DNA of 43,298 bases from Sphingomonadales bacterium. GTDB lineage: Bacteria; Pseudomonadota; Alphaproteobacteria; Sphingomonadales; Sphingomonadaceae. The notes beneath the pieces are model-generated. The model had not been told where the DNA came from, ran no database searches, and was given only the letters and a program-made list of their open reading frames with translations. The stretch covers positions 1-43,298 of the forward strand of contig JAAFIB010000017.1 in assembly GCA_013297725.1 (NCBI GenBank), read 5' to 3'. The position numbers and the translations under genes were made by a program. This document shows, piece by piece, positions 6,032-10,291 of the stretch. Numbering within the stretch: the stretch's first letter is position 1; each line of letters opens with the position of its first letter.

Positions 6032-6730
6032 TCAAGGCGCGTCGCTCATAATCCAGTCGACACCAGCATCAGCATGGATTTCCGCACTATCATAAATTGG
6101 CAGAATGTTGGCCTTTGTGTCCACAATCATGCCCAGTTCGGTGCAGCCCAAAACCACCGCGTCCGCGCCATCCTTATCAATTTCGGTGATCAGCGTTTTT
6201 AGCGTGCGTTCGGAATTGCGCACCGCCTGCCCCGCCATCAGCTCGTCATAAATAATCCGGTCAAGCTCATCAACGTCGCCCGCCTCCCATGGCAGCAAAG
6301 TTACGCCGTGCTTCACGAGCCGCTGGCGATACCAGTTTTCGGCCATCACATTGCGTGTGCCGACCAACGCAGCTGATTTGACGCCAGCAGCTTTCATTTT
6401 TTGCCCGACAGCATCGGCGATGTGAATGACCTTTACGGACACAGCCTCTGCAACCTGTGCGTGCACCTTATGCATACTGTTCGCGCCAATCAGGATCGCA
6501 GTTGCGCCGCCGTCTTCCAGACGTTTTGCCGATGTAACCAGCGTTTCGGCAACATGATCCCAATCCTGTTCACTGGTCGCGCGGGCCAGATCACAAAAGT
6601 TCAAATTGTCGACCAACATCGGCGCGCTGCACAGGCCACCAACACGGCGCTGAACCTGTTTATTGATACGGCGGTAATAGAATTCGGTGGAATACCAACT
6701 CATTCCGCCGATCAGACCCAATTTACGCAT
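6032..6730 (-). CDS. Aspartate/glutamate racemase family protein
   Basis: A 232-residue Asp/Glu/hydantoin racemase-superfamily protein. It starts MRKLGLIGGMSWYSTEFYYR and carries the C-terminal catalytic segment VVLGCTELGMI. Two-base racemases use a first Cys in a CNT motif and a second Cys in LGCTE. Here the first motif reads GANSMH, so the residue before the Asn is Ala, while the second Cys is present. The E. coli relative YgeA is reported to have Thr at the first position, so non-Cys variants exist. A GGGAAG ribosome site precedes the ATG. The gene sits alone between two inverted-repeat pairs. Amino-acid racemase or epimerase activity is plausible but uncertain. Confidence 0.8.
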   Translation of the reverse strand: MRKLGLIGGMSWYSTEFYYRRINKQVQRRVGGLCSAPMLVDNLNFCDLARATSEQDWDHVAETLVTSAKRLEDGGATAILIGANSMHKVHAQVAEAVSVKVIHIADAVGQKMKAAGVKSAALVGTRNVMAENWYRQRLVKHGVTLLPWEAGDVDELDRIIYDELMAGQAVRNSERTLKTLITEIDKDGADAVVLGCTELGMIVDTKANILPIYDSAEIHADAGVDWIMSDAP

Positions 6731-6767
6731 GTCACTTCCCTAGATTTCCTGCCTGCCTCAAACCAAG

Positions 6768-6855
6768 AAACCGTAGTGCTGAGCCTGTCGAAGCACGCCT
6801 CACGGCACAGCGCTACGTCGGAGAAGCGCCCTTCGACAAGCTCAGGGCTACGGTT
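6768..6855. repeat. Imperfect inverted repeat, second copy of the TTCGACAGGCTCAG type
   Basis: Arms at about 6768-6797 and 6826-6855 are imperfect inverted copies of the element seen at 5917-6013 (left core AGTGCTGAGCCTGTCGAAG; right arm has three or so changes). It lies between the pntB stop (6902) and the racemase start, where a hairpin could end pntB transcription. A T6 run follows the right arm on the plus strand. Confidence 0.75.
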
Positions 6856-6901
6856 TTTTGATTGGCAGAGCTGCCTTGGACCTGCCTTAGCGTCAGATGC
6901 C

Positions 6902-8407
6902 TCAGTGCTGCAAGGCCTTGACGATATCATCCACCATCTTCTTGGCATCGGCGAGCAACATCATCGTCTGGTCCATATAGAACACGTCGTTATCGACCCC
7001 TGCATAGCCCACGCCGCCCATGCTGCGCTTGATGAAGAAAACCGTCTTGGCTTTGTCCACATCAAACACCGGCATTCCGTAAATCGGCGAGGTTTTATCG
7101 GTTTTTGCCGCAGGATTGACCACGTCATTCGCGCCGATGATGAAGGCGACATCGGTTTGCGCAAATTCGCTGTTGATGTCCTCCAACTCGAACACCTCGT
7201 CATAGGGCACATTGGCCTCAGCGAGTAGCACATTCATGTGGCCGGGCATGCGGCCAGCGACGGGGTGGATAGCGTATTTGACCTTCACACCTTCGCGTTT
7301 CAGGATATCGGCCATTTCGCGCAGAGCATGCTGGGCCTGCGCCACAGCCATGCCGTAACCGGGAACGATGATGACGCTTTCGGCCTGTTGCATCATATAG
7401 GCAGCATCCTCTGCAGAGCCACGTTTCCACGGGCGCTGTTCCTTGGCTTCGCCGCCCTCGGATGCCACCGCACCAAATCCGCCCGCGATCACCGAAATAA
7501 AGCTGCGGTTCATTGCCTTGCACATGATGTAAGATAGGATCGCGCCGGATGATCCGACCAACGCGCCGGTTATGATCATGGCACTGTTATGCAGCGTAAA
7601 GCCCATCGCCGCCGCCGCCCAGCCCGAATAGCTGTTCAGCATCGACACCACAACGGGCATGTCCGCGCCGCCAATGGGGATGATGAGCAGGAAGCCGATG
7701 ATGAAGCTGAGCGCGACGATGGCCCAGAAAACCCATTCGGTGCTATTGGTTGGCAGGATAGCAAAATAGGCGGTCAGCCCAATAATCGCTAGCAAAGTGC
7801 CAAGGTTGATAACGTGCCGCCCGGGCAGCATAATCGGCGAGCCCGACATTTTGCCGGCGAGCTTTAGGAAGGCGATAACCGAGCCGGAGAACGTGATCGC
7901 ACCAATCGCAACGCCCAGCCCCATTTCGATGCGGCTGACGGTTAGAATTTCTTTGTTTGCGTCAAGGATGCCGAACGCTTCGGGGTTCAGATAGGCGGCA
8001 ACGCCAACCAACACTGCGGCGAGGCCCACCAACGAGTGAAACGCCGCAACTAGCTGCGGCATGTCGGTCATCTTGATGCGTCGTGCAGTGGTTAGACCGA
8101 TTATCGCACCAACGGCAATAGCACCAGCAATCCATAGAAGATTGACTTCATTACCGGCATTTTCAGCCGAACGTGCCAAAAAGTCTGCATACTCTGGACT
8201 ATTTTGCGGCGGCGAAGGCCAAGTTAATGTCGGGCGATATTGACTGACCAAAGTCGTAACGACCGCAATCAACATCCCCGCCATACCAAAACGGTTGCCC
8301 CGACGTGACGAAGCGGGCGAACTCAACCCACGAAGCGCAAGGATGAAGAAAACACCGGAAATCAGGTAAGCCATCATGGCCCATGCGGGAACGGCTGCAT
8401 GTTCCAT
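6902..8407 (-). CDS. pntB: NAD(P)(+) transhydrogenase subunit beta
   Basis: A 501-residue membrane protein. The N-terminal two thirds are multi-pass transmembrane (domain II). The C-terminal part, about residue 325 onward, is the NADP(H)-binding domain III, with GYGMAVAQAQHALREM, HPVAGRMPGHMNVLLAEA and GANDVVNPAA. With PntAA and PntAB it forms the proton-translocating transhydrogenase that moves hydride from NADH to NADP+ at the inner membrane, driven by the proton gradient. It starts 3 bases after the pntAB stop, with an AAGAAGG ribosome site, and is the last gene of the operon; an inverted repeat lies downstream. Confidence 0.96.
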   Translation of the reverse strand: MEHAAVPAWAMMAYLISGVFFILALRGLSSPASSRRGNRFGMAGMLIAVVTTLVSQYRPTLTWPSPPQNSPEYADFLARSAENAGNEVNLLWIAGAIAVGAIIGLTTARRIKMTDMPQLVAAFHSLVGLAAVLVGVAAYLNPEAFGILDANKEILTVSRIEMGLGVAIGAITFSGSVIAFLKLAGKMSGSPIMLPGRHVINLGTLLAIIGLTAYFAILPTNSTEWVFWAIVALSFIIGFLLIIPIGGADMPVVVSMLNSYSGWAAAAMGFTLHNSAMIITGALVGSSGAILSYIMCKAMNRSFISVIAGGFGAVASEGGEAKEQRPWKRGSAEDAAYMMQQAESVIIVPGYGMAVAQAQHALREMADILKREGVKVKYAIHPVAGRMPGHMNVLLAEANVPYDEVFELEDINSEFAQTDVAFIIGANDVVNPAAKTDKTSPIYGMPVFDVDKAKTVFFIKRSMGGVGYAGVDNDVFYMDQTMMLLADAKKMVDDIVKALQH

Positions 8408-8410
8408 GTG

Positions 8411-8692
8411 TTACTTATCCTTCTTTTTATACATAGCCAGCATCCGCGCCGTTACCGCAAAGCCGCCAAAAATGTTGATACTGGCAAGCACCACGCCCAA
8501 CAGCCCGAGCCACTTCGCCCCAGGAGCACCCGAAGCCGCAGCCGCAATCAGCGCACCGACAATTATGACCGACGAAATCGCATTCGTCACCGCCATCAAC
8601 GGCGTGTGCAATGCGGGGGTGACTGACCAAACGACATAATAGCCGACAAAACAGGCCATTACGAAGATGGATAGGATTGAGATGAAGTCCAT
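8411..8692 (-). CDS. pntAB: NAD(P) transhydrogenase subunit alpha part 2 (membrane segment)
   Basis: A 93-residue membrane subunit starting MDFISILSIFVMACFVGYYVVW and ending MLAMYKKKDK. It is the part of domain II that alphaproteobacteria encode separately from the soluble NAD-binding subunit. The frame runs upstream through the repeat, but the ATG at 8692 gives the family's normal N-terminus. Its Shine-Dalgarno sequence, GGAGG at 8706-8702, nine bases before the ATG, lies inside the terminal repeat of the neighbouring DUF559 cassette. Normally this gene directly follows pntAA; here 468 bases of cassette separate them. Confidence 0.95.
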   Translation of the reverse strand: MDFISILSIFVMACFVGYYVVWSVTPALHTPLMAVTNAISSVIIVGALIAAAASGAPGAKWLGLLGVVLASINIFGGFAVTARMLAMYKKKDK

Positions 8693-8696
8693 TATT

Positions 8697-9164
8697 TTAT
8701 TCCTCCCCGGAACGGGGAGGGGGACCATCCAAAGGATGGTGGAGGGGGCTCGCCGCACGCGCAACGATTGCTTGGGCAGTCCCAACAGCATCCGCCAAAA
8801 CGCGCTGCGCCGAAACCCTCAGCACCCTGTAACCGTTCTCTTTCATAAATTTGGTTCGAATTTCGTCGCGTTTGGGGTTGTTGCCCATGTCGTGAGCCAT
8901 GCCGTCGACTTCCACGACAAGCCTTGCTGACAAACAGCAGAAATCGACGATGTACGGACCTATTGGGTGTTGACGACGAAATTTGAGACCGTCCGGGCGG
9001 GCTCGGAACAGCTGCCAAAGCATCCGTTCAGGAACCGTCATTTCGCTACGCAAGCGGCGGGCGTTGTAGACGACAGGGCGTTGAAAGGGCTTCAAACCCC
9101 CTCCACCACGCTTCGCGCGGTCCCCCTCCCCGTTCCGGGGAGGAATTTGCGGCGCGCCATTCAC
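8697..9164 (-). CDS. DUF559 (Vsr/PD-(D/E)XK-like) endonuclease-domain protein inserted in the pnt operon
   Basis: A 155-residue ORF. Its core, about residues 33-135, is a DUF559 domain: NARRLRSEMTVPERMLW, GLKFRRQHPIGPYIVDF and LVVEVDGMAHD, followed by GYRVLRVSA. Asp74 (VDF) and Glu85-x-Asp87 (VEVDG) fit the acidic residues of the Vsr-like PD-(D/E)XK fold; the biochemical role is unknown. The first ~23 residues (IPPRNGEGDR, GGGG) and the last ~17 (LHHPLDGPPPRSGEE) are translated from the two flanking repeats. The GTG start at 9164 overlaps the pntAA stop (GTGA); an internal TTG near 9096 would start just inside the repeat. The stop lies 4 bases from pntAB. The domain is confidently assigned; mobility is inferred. 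Confidence 0.8.
   Translation of the reverse strand: MNGAPQIPPRNGEGDRAKRGGGGLKPFQRPVVYNARRLRSEMTVPERMLWQLFRARPDGLKFRRQHPIGPYIVDFCCLSARLVVEVDGMAHDMGNNPKRDEIRTKFMKENGYRVLRVSAQRVLADAVGTAQAIVARAASPLHHPLDGPPPRSGEE
8699..8748 (-). repeat. Terminal repeat unit of the DUF559 cassette (pntAB side)
   Basis: A 50-base unit made of a 28-base outer block (8699-8726, containing the palindrome CTCCCCGGAACGGGGAG), an 11-base variable hairpin (ATCC-AAA-GGAT, 8727-8737) and an 11-base inner block GGTGGAGGGGG (8738-8748). The inverted copy at 9097-9146 matches in all 39 non-variable positions. Confidence 0.92.
8702..8706 (-). promoter_or_regulatory. Shine-Dalgarno of pntAB supplied by the repeat
   Basis: On the minus strand GGAGG ends nine bases before the pntAB ATG (8692-8690). 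These bases belong to the outer block of the repeat, and the DUF559 stop codon TAA (8699-8697) falls between SD and ATG. Translation of pntAB therefore appears to depend on the inserted sequence. Confidence 0.7.
9097..9146 (+). repeat. Terminal repeat unit of the DUF559 cassette (pntAA side), inverted
   Basis: The inverted counterpart of 8699-8748. Outer block 9119-9146 and inner block 9097-9107 are identical to the other copy. The 11-base centre (9108-9118) differs completely in sequence but can still fold, as GCGC-GAA-GCGT on the minus strand with one G-U pair. The copies face each other with outer blocks outermost, like terminal inverted repeats. Confidence 0.92.
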
Positions 9165-10291
9165 CCCAGCAACCTCTCATTCACAACCTTGCCATCCTTC
9201 GTAAGCCGAATAGCAGCGGTAATCTCATCATCATTGGGCAGCACAGGCCGCCCCGCTTCCTTATCCCAAAAGGCAGAGAGGAAGTTGAACAGGTTGCGTG
9301 CAAACAGCGCGGATGTGTCTGCGGCCAAGTGCGCAGGCGTATTGGAATAGCCGATGATTTTCACGCCGTGTTTGATGACGACCTCATCGGGCTTTGAACC
9401 CTCAACATTACCGCCTTGCGCAACTGCAAGGTCGAAAATCACACAGCCAGGCTTCATGCTCTTGATCTGATCGTCGCTCACTAAACGCGGCGCGGCGCGT
9501 CCGGGGATAAGCGCGGTGGTGATTACAATATCCTGCTTGGCGATGTGCGATGATACCAGCTCGGCCTGTGCCGCCTTATATTCATCAGACATTTCGGTCG
9601 CATAGCCACCTGCGCCTTCGCCTTCGATACCCGCAACATTCTCAACGAACACCGCCTTGGCCCCAAGACTTTCGATCTGTTCTTTAGTGGCCGATCGCAC
9701 GTCTGTTGCCGATACGACAGCTCCCATACGCCGTGCCGTTGCAATGGCTTGCAAGCCCGCAACGCCCACACCCATGATGAAAACCTTTGCCGCACTCACG
9801 GTGCCTGCCGCTGTCATCATCATCGGGAACGCGCGGCCGAAGGTTCCGGCACTGTCGATCACAGCTTTGTACCCCGAGAGGTTTGACTGCGACGAGAGGA
9901 TGTCAAAACCCTGCGCCCGCGTAACGCGCGGCATAAATTCCATCGCCAGCGCCTCAACGCCTGCCCTGGCATATTCGTCAACGCGCTTGCGCTGTCCAAA
10001 CGGGTCAAGCCCCGCAACTATCCAAGCGCCTTTGGCAACACCCTTAAGCGCCTTTGGATCTGGCCCCTGCACGCCGAGCAGTATGTCAGCATCCTTGGCC
10101 ACGACCGCCGCTGCACCTAAAGTCGCGCCAACAGCCTCATATTCTGCATCTGAGATCGACGCCGATAGCCCAGCGCCTTTTTCAACTGATACCGCCGCGC
10201 CAAGCCCGATGAACTTCTTTACAGTTTCCGGCGTCGCAGCAACACGGGTCTCGCCAGCGGCGGTTTCCTTTAGGACAGCGATTTTTGTCAC
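9161..10291 (-). CDS. pntAA: Re/Si-specific NAD(P)(+) transhydrogenase subunit alpha part 1 (NAD-binding)
   Basis: A 376-residue soluble domain I protein related to alanine dehydrogenase. It begins MTKIAVLKETAAGETRVAATPETV. The NAD-binding Rossmann segment is VFIMGVGVAGLQAIATARRMGA, followed by VSATDVRSATKEQ and the mobile-loop region ending in a C-terminal tail LPNDDEITAAIRLTKDGKVVNERLLG. It binds NAD(H) at the cytoplasmic face of the transhydrogenase. It follows the small COX IV-like gene by one base. Its stop overlaps the GTG of the DUF559 insert, so pntAB is displaced downstream. Confidence 0.96.
   Translation of the reverse strand: MTKIAVLKETAAGETRVAATPETVKKFIGLGAAVSVEKGAGLSASISDAEYEAVGATLGAAAVVAKDADILLGVQGPDPKALKGVAKGAWIVAGLDPFGQRKRVDEYARAGVEALAMEFMPRVTRAQGFDILSSQSNLSGYKAVIDSAGTFGRAFPMMMTAAGTVSAAKVFIMGVGVAGLQAIATARRMGAVVSATDVRSATKEQIESLGAKAVFVENVAGIEGEGAGGYATEMSDEYKAAQAELVSSHIAKQDIVITTALIPGRAAPRLVSDDQIKSMKPGCVIFDLAVAQGGNVEGSKPDEVVIKHGVKIIGYSNTPAHLAADTSALFARNLFNFLSAFWDKEAGRPVLPNDDEITAAIRLTKDGKVVNERLLG

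Follow-up and report, generated by a model that had tools for sequence, protein, structure and literature searches.

A DUF559 gene enclosed by inverted palindromic arms interrupts the transhydrogenase operon of a Sphingomonadales bacterium, and across the order related genes are mostly enclosed by arms whose type follows the type of the nuclease. On balance we favour the reading that these genes and their arms form a REPIN-like system in which a Vsr-fold nuclease takes the place of the RAYT enzyme, the nuclease being specific for its own arm type and spreading arms and arm doublets in trans.

Within the window, by which we mean the whole analysed stretch of 43,298 nucleotides, pntAA (9161-10291, minus strand, AlaDh_PNT match) is the host gene upstream of the insertion, and pntAB (minus strand, ATG at 8692, stop at 8411, PNTB_4TM match) is the host gene downstream of it. 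The first-pass annotation had described the two genes as split by a 50-base repeat, a DUF559 gene and an inverted copy of the repeat, and both coordinates and Pfam matches agree with this description. The whole element of arm, gene and inverted arm spans 448 bp (8699-9146, minus strand). Read from a GTG start, the DUF559 frame (8697-9164, minus strand) encodes a protein of 155 aa with a match to PF04480 (E = 2.9e-31). As had also been noted, this GTG (9164-9162) shares bases with the stop codon of pntAA, the pntAB ATG begins after a gap of 4 bases past the DUF559 stop, and the frame runs open across both arms, the right one encoding the tail PPPRSGEE. The left (5') arm (9097-9146, minus strand) contains hairpin 1 at 9125-9143 and hairpin 2 at 9105-9121 and carries an SD-like sequence, GGTGGAGGGGG, at its inner end. 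An in-frame TTG (9093-9095, minus strand) follows one base past this SD-like end and, judged from the sequence, may be the true start rather than the GTG. The right (3') arm is inverted (8699-8748, plus strand) with hairpin 1 at 8702-8720 and hairpin 2 at 8724-8740; its outer end, GGGGAGGA on the gene strand, is SD-like and lies 8 nt upstream of the pntAB ATG.

Both arms are 50 bp long and differ only within 11 variable bases of the second hairpin; ungapped extension of the arm match gave 68 nt at 79%. The long arm pattern was found twice in the window, compared to no occurrence in 100 shuffles, and three times in the genome. For single-stranded DNA two hairpins were predicted both for the left arm (9092-9146, z = -3.42) and for the right arm (8699-8752, z = -3.93). 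Pfam recognised no transposase domain within the element, the matches being DUF559 and one REase model below cut-off.

Judged by the junctions of relatives, the element between pntAA and pntAB is an insertion. Alignment of related pnt junctions, which had been proposed as a check for empty sites, revealed a short gap of 12-17 bp in 20 of 30 congeneric genomes; 7 genomes including this one carried DUF559 and 3 carried other content. In the family sample PntAB was found in 113 of 119 genomes and 68 junctions were analysed, of which 10 contained DUF559, 19 were shorter than 40 bp and 4 gave no PntAA match. The remaining 35 junctions held other sequence of 49-1364 bp, so the pnt junction may generally be a permissive spot. 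One of these 35 cases (L332) consists of 49 bp that form a lone hairpin of the same type as here.

A gene-less doublet of arms is located before ribF in this genome (L001). Among 29 relatives the ribF junction showed a gap of -4 to +5 bp in 17 cases and of 14-37 bp in 3 cases (one with a short palindrome), a different palindromic element was present in 7, and 2 were unreadable. Divergence of the empty sites prevented the boundary from being placed at pnt and at ribF, and no target-site duplication could be read at either. A second and unrelated-looking palindromic family, GCCCTGAGC...GCTCAGGGC in inverted arrangement with junction gaps of 133-161 bp, was observed at the dipeptidase/ribF junction in L239, L240, L243, L244, L247, L249 and L250, which is the site of the type-A doublet in this genome (arm types are defined below). 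Possible remnants of this second family lie in the window at about 6712-6948.

Going by its structure model (mean pLDDT 89.3), the DUF559 protein has a Vsr fold, which is in line with the nuclease fold that the first-pass annotation had assigned. Foldseek matched the model to 3hrl, an endonuclease-like DUF559 protein, to I-Bth0305I (3r3p, E = 2.5e-5) and to Vsr (1vsr, E = 3.8e-3), and a profile search likewise retrieved 3hrl (E = 6.8e-36) and the homing endonuclease 3r3p (E = 3.6e-6). I-Bth0305I thus shares both a profile match and a fold match with the protein described here; it differs in being labelled a mobile intron protein, whereas the DUF559 gene stands between inverted palindromes. Across 70 relatives E23, W27, E62, H68 and D77 were invariant and D51 and D64 were conserved in at least 90%, a pattern which we take to resemble the EDxHD signature. 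A known defence protein was rejected as an identity for the nuclease, the best PADLOC match having E = 0.02. On plasmids, the search for close copies returned 40 records, all below 60% identity. A literature search at the level of titles and abstracts, with subscription journals and preprints thinly covered, found no link of DUF559 to palindromic repeats.

DUF559 genes elsewhere carry flanking repeats as well. Among 145 order-wide loci (among the matches listed) an inverted-repeat pair scored at least 15 in 112 and at least 20 in 97 cases, and the 33 loci without a scoring pair included 7 of the 8 suf-site genes. Of the first 93 loci, 73 scored at least 15, versus 0 of 465 mononucleotide shuffles. 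When the left flank of one locus was paired with the right flank of another, 112 of 917 combinations reached 15, as expected if repeat types are shared among loci; at a score of at least 25 the numbers were 47 of 93 for true flank pairs versus 35 of 917 for cross-pairs. Control genes were taken from relatives, partly from other genomes than the DUF559 loci and omitting the ribF locus of this genome, and yielded no scoring pair in ribF flanks (0/27) or around pntAB without DUF559 (0/42; 0/69 in total). A chance inverted repeat is ruled out by the shuffles and these control flanks. A set of 79 loci picked by similarity to this nuclease contained 51 that scored at least 16, versus 78 of 790 cross-pairings; it leans to type A because of this choice, and at least L130 and L135 duplicate loci of the order-wide set. 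Its loci with scoring arms include Elusimicrobia, Phycisphaerae, Deltaproteobacteria and Paraburkholderia. Another layout is found in L006 (G000:C61), the third of the DUF559 genes in this genome, whose arms together form a complete doublet at its 3' end (1839-1985) and do not stand one on each side.

In type-A-like loci the arms are largely read together with the gene. The frame was open across the left arm in 52 of 58 such loci, and in 42 an in-frame start lay no more than 18 nt from the SD-like inner end. A stop codon followed 2-35 nt past the right arm in 39 of the 47 readable loci, and the C-terminal tail (here PPPRSGE) is therefore encoded by the arm. Such tails of annotated DUF559 proteins can stem from translation of the repeat, which calls for caution in annotation. 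In 20 of 32 type-A loci a frame of 60 codons or more begins with an ATG within 25 nt downstream of the right arm.

Mapping of repeat copies without the gene, another check proposed at the outset, showed these to be dispersed. Among the 150 type-A copies listed (of 841), another copy lay no more than 600 bp away in 108 cases. Of the 60 pairs of adjacent listed copies up to 1000 bp apart, 52 were convergent, with spacings of 83-165 bp in 48 pairs and of 431-457 bp in 4 pairs, each of the latter containing a DUF559 match. Twenty regions selected around convergent type-A pairs were fetched; besides a single full copy of 456 bp they held 23 units without the gene, each 112-142 bp long. The palindromic units that the first-pass annotation had expected to spread do exist without the gene, but their form is a doublet of arms and not mainly a single palindrome. 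In one region (L218, G059:C1:354500-356250) we observed a BIME-like array of type-A doublets, the last three about 278 bp apart.

Hairpin 2 is variable in sequence and nevertheless paired, with 450 of 457 cells pairing versus 70% after swapping of the 3' halves. In 20 arms that we picked for diversity out of the 60 arms that shared a length class (124 distinct arms in all), 99.3% of cells were paired and 32 cells were changed on both sides; each of these values was reached in 0 of 500 shuffles, and so was the covariation score. Two of the five covariation measures were not extreme, namely double-change pairs (13/500 shuffles) and further pair types (151/500). Triloops were mostly GNA, in 60 of 95 cases for hairpin 1 and in 93 of 116 for hairpin 2. 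GNA triloops are unusually stable in DNA.

The arms were sorted into types by their stem (A = CCTCCCC, B = CCTCTCCC, C = CCCCTCCC) according to rules of our own making that were revised once. By these rules 104 of the 145 loci were typed; the other loci were 33 that lacked a scoring pair and 8 whose type was unclear. On the nuclease tree, which like the other nuclease trees is a quick tree of the domain of about 100 residues, the repeat types of these 104 loci (among the matches listed) needed 6 changes. Shuffling of the labels gave a mean of 48.5 and a minimum of 38 changes in 1000 shuffles, and shuffling within genomes only gave a mean of 41.0 and a minimum of 27. The three nearest nuclease proteins from other genomes predicted the repeat type at 100 of the 104 loci among the matches listed. 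Such linkage at the locus would arise too if arms and gene just travelled together. Over 54 genomes the count of each repeat type rose with how many cognate nucleases a genome has (Spearman 0.61 for A, 0.65 for B and 0.46 for C), compared to 0.04 to 0.43 for non-cognate types; for these counts loci of unclear type were assigned by their nearest typed relatives, and G014 remained untyped. Several observations stand against the main reading, among them these non-cognate correlations of up to 0.43, the 33 loci that lack a scoring pair, and the 18 type-B palindromes of this genome, none of whose three DUF559 genes is of type B, one being typed C and two A. The type-B copies may have been left behind by a nuclease since lost. 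Type-C palindromes number 17 in the same genome.

Presence of the nuclease and abundance of the repeats also go together across genomes. DUF559 was present in 72 of the 147 genomes of the order. Five or more repeats occurred in 47 of the 56 genomes whose DUF559 match was strong (E < 1e-20), in 0 of 16 with a weak match and in 0 of 75 with none; this split was fixed after inspection of the list, and any match taken together gives 47 of 72 versus 0 of 75. Nine of the 56 strong genomes had fewer than five repeats. Unsubtracted repeat counts, those of the class sample included, contain the nucleases' own arms, and with two arms subtracted per DUF559 match 40 of the 56 strong genomes still reached five. 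The number of repeats followed DUF559 copy number (Spearman 0.88 overall and 0.82 inside the family), and reversed control patterns gave 0 to 2 matches per genome and strand in the order searches. A class sample of 187 genomes outside the family was searched with a looser repeat pattern than the order sample, and three family genomes had been removed from it before counting: at least five repeats occurred in 24 of 44 genomes with strong DUF559 versus 7 of 143 without (Fisher 1.6e-12). The latter 7 genomes, and 6 of the 44 strong genomes with zero repeats, stand against a simple rule. One genome of the class sample (G330) showed 125 palindrome matches, yet also 73 to the reversed control pattern.

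The RAYT family PF01797 did not show such an association. It was detected in 32 of the 147 order genomes and in 12 of the 47 repeat-rich ones (p = 0.52), and this genome gave no match to it. We therefore rejected RAYT-driven repeats as an explanation.

Copies with the nuclease are found again and again at a restricted number of host sites, a point on which the first-pass annotation needs correction. The 136 tree loci (among the matches listed) form 17 host-flank clusters, and the cluster labels needed 40 changes on the nuclease tree compared to a shuffled mean of 101.8 and a minimum of 93. The pnt label (23 loci) alone needed at least 9 changes, which means that this junction was filled repeatedly or that DUF559 was replaced there. 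In G171, whose PntAB is 98% identical to ours, the same junction carries a DUF559 only 45% identical to ours, and together with the at least 9 changes this led us to reject a single ancestral pnt insertion followed by vertical descent. One pair with PntAA 96% and DUF559 100% identical hints, at the level of sequence, at lateral arrival. This pair and the recurrence of sites, including DUF559 at pnt in 10 of 68 family genomes, together with the homing endonuclease I-Bth0305I being the second-best solved relative, would suit a homing-type element, in which the nuclease cuts particular empty operon junctions, is copied in by flank recombination and leaves the dispersed doublets as by-products or decoys. 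We regard this as a possible but rather unlikely explanation. It does not account for dispersed repeats that track both presence and type of the nuclease. Identities of PntAA and DUF559 at the pnt site were weakly correlated (0.36), and one pair with PntAA 98% and DUF559 40% identical indicates replacement of DUF559. The junction may also be just permissive, as other sequence occupies it in 35 of 68 family genomes, and site recurrence at pnt may be compatible with vertical descent or permissive junctions as well as with homing.

The suf site differs from the others in its arms. A lineage of DUF559 genes without a scoring arm pair adjoins sufB in several genera (L284, L290, L301, L304, L305, L308 and L309) and is perhaps domesticated. 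In this genome a DUF559 gene lies between sufB and sufC (L004, 1340-1920, G000:C138), and the frame that continues past the right arm terminates in KEAQKLLGISLEVSVG; this is a diverged copy of VEAQKLLGISLEGSVG, the sufB C-terminus with which the intact upstream sufB ends. The flanking duplication is about 48 bp long and its copies differ at the DNA level. A motif search for this kind of sufB-end duplication found none in the other 7 suf-site loci.

Passages of one study (PMC12907096) describe VsrA of Caulobacter as a DUF559 protein and Vsr-like endonuclease that the DNA damage response requires once a cytosine methyltransferase is lost, and for which a role in mismatch repair is predicted. A repair or housekeeping function might be considered accordingly, in which a Vsr-like DUF559 processes mismatches or hairpins and palindromes moved by another agent build up where they are healed or tolerated. 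This tie to cytosine methylation and DNA damage, the presence of Vsr among the structural matches and the 7 of 8 suf-site genes that belong to the lineage without a scoring arm pair all fit such a function, which we nevertheless consider improbable, as it leaves unexplained the inverted-arm bracketing at 112 of 145 loci (among the matches listed), the arm type following the nuclease clade, the doublets and the occurrence of as many as 10 DUF559 matches in a single genome (among the matches listed). Slightly less probable still is that doublets are mobilised by an unrelated enzyme with DUF559 as cargo trapped in one doublet per lineage: gene-less pairs do outnumber gene-bearing ones by 48 to 4 among the copies listed, and 7 of the 31 class genomes with at least five repeats have no strong DUF559, but a single cargo family recurs with all three repeat types (A, B and C) and also with arms in Phycisphaerae and Elusimicrobia, of 8 pairs tested for DUF559 dN/dS the 5 with a finite ratio all gave values below 0.5, and PF01797, the one transposase family compared, does not track the repeats.

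The REPIN-like reading that we favour draws on a close resemblance in architecture. REPIN/RAYT systems, in the parts of PMC3116915 that describe them, consist of inverted doublets and of a distinct enzyme gene per repeat type that lies beside its own repeats. Both features are shared: short palindromes are dispersed here as inverted doublets (52 of 60 listed pairs convergent, 48 of them spaced 83-165 bp), and each repeat type has an enzyme gene flanked by that type and co-varying with it (100 of 104 loci predicted). The linked enzyme differs, being a PF04480 Vsr-fold DUF559 protein here and a Y1 tyrosine transposase (PF01797) in the case of RAYT, and PF01797 gave no match in 35 of 47 repeat-rich genomes, among them this one. 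Type-A arms further differ in having two hairpins and in being read in frame with the enzyme. The same architecture with an unrelated enzyme would mean that the system works like REPIN/RAYT without being a member of it.

As with MITEs and their autonomous transposons, a short form without the gene and a long form with it have their inverted ends in common. Unlike such transposons or insertion sequences with terminal inverted repeats, the element here has no recognised transposase domain, and unlike MITEs the doublet spacers in G135 showed, by eye, no remnants or internal deletions of the full copy present there. CGTC REPs are characterised by a CGTC tag, a stem of 8-9 bp beginning with AT and a CCA tail. 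A form of the CGTC consensus that may differ from the published one was found near only 6 of 224 DUF559 loci, and in this form CGTC REPs were rejected as the arms, though the families may overlap. The sections of a 2013 survey that deal with these REPs describe them as mostly head-to-head palindromic doublets that are frequent in Alphaproteobacteria, a feature shared with the doublets found here, and, with most of them occurring in Alphaproteobacteria, as apparently without a dedicated transposase (PMC3733652).

The first-pass annotation had read the order of repeat, nuclease and repeat as a mobile cassette similar to RAYT/REP systems. Neither of the two outcomes that it had named as refuting this, a lack of empty sites among relatives and a lack of such repeats at DUF559 genes elsewhere, was observed. 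Empty sites, cognate types, co-occurrence and gene-less doublets support the cassette; the part of the claim by which the nuclease causes the spread is one that we infer. Direct movement of the element was not observed in these genome comparisons. In the mechanism that we propose, a full copy would consist of two inverted arms with two hairpins each around one DUF559 nuclease gene, and the arm-spacer-arm doublets without the gene would be non-autonomous versions of it. With specificity for its own arm type, the nuclease would maintain or spread arms and doublets in trans as RAYTs are proposed to do for REPINs. The arms would fold into hairpins in single-stranded DNA, as the predicted folds and the covariation suggest. 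Its fold and its conserved acidic and histidine residues suggest that the nuclease might recognise the cognate hairpins and nick or cut there or at the target junction, and the break might then be healed by copying in a doublet or a full element, so that cutting would spread the units. Persistence at tight operon junctions could be favoured because GGGGAGGA would supply a ribosome-binding sequence for the next gene and because the arms are open reading frames.

For some palindromic repeats of bacteria no mover is known, and a pairing with DUF559 would give such repeats an enzyme. DUF559, to which Pfam assigns no role, would in turn gain one if it is paired type by type with dispersed hairpins. 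With our confidence evenly balanced we further propose that Vsr-fold DUF559 proteins are a second and independently evolved class of palindrome-mobilising enzymes in bacteria, each with its own hairpin code, which may be responsible for a large part of the GC-rich palindromic repeats in Alphaproteobacteria and in other phyla, and that their gene-bearing copies may home into few operon junctions, where the arm ends would serve as ready-made ribosome-binding sites.
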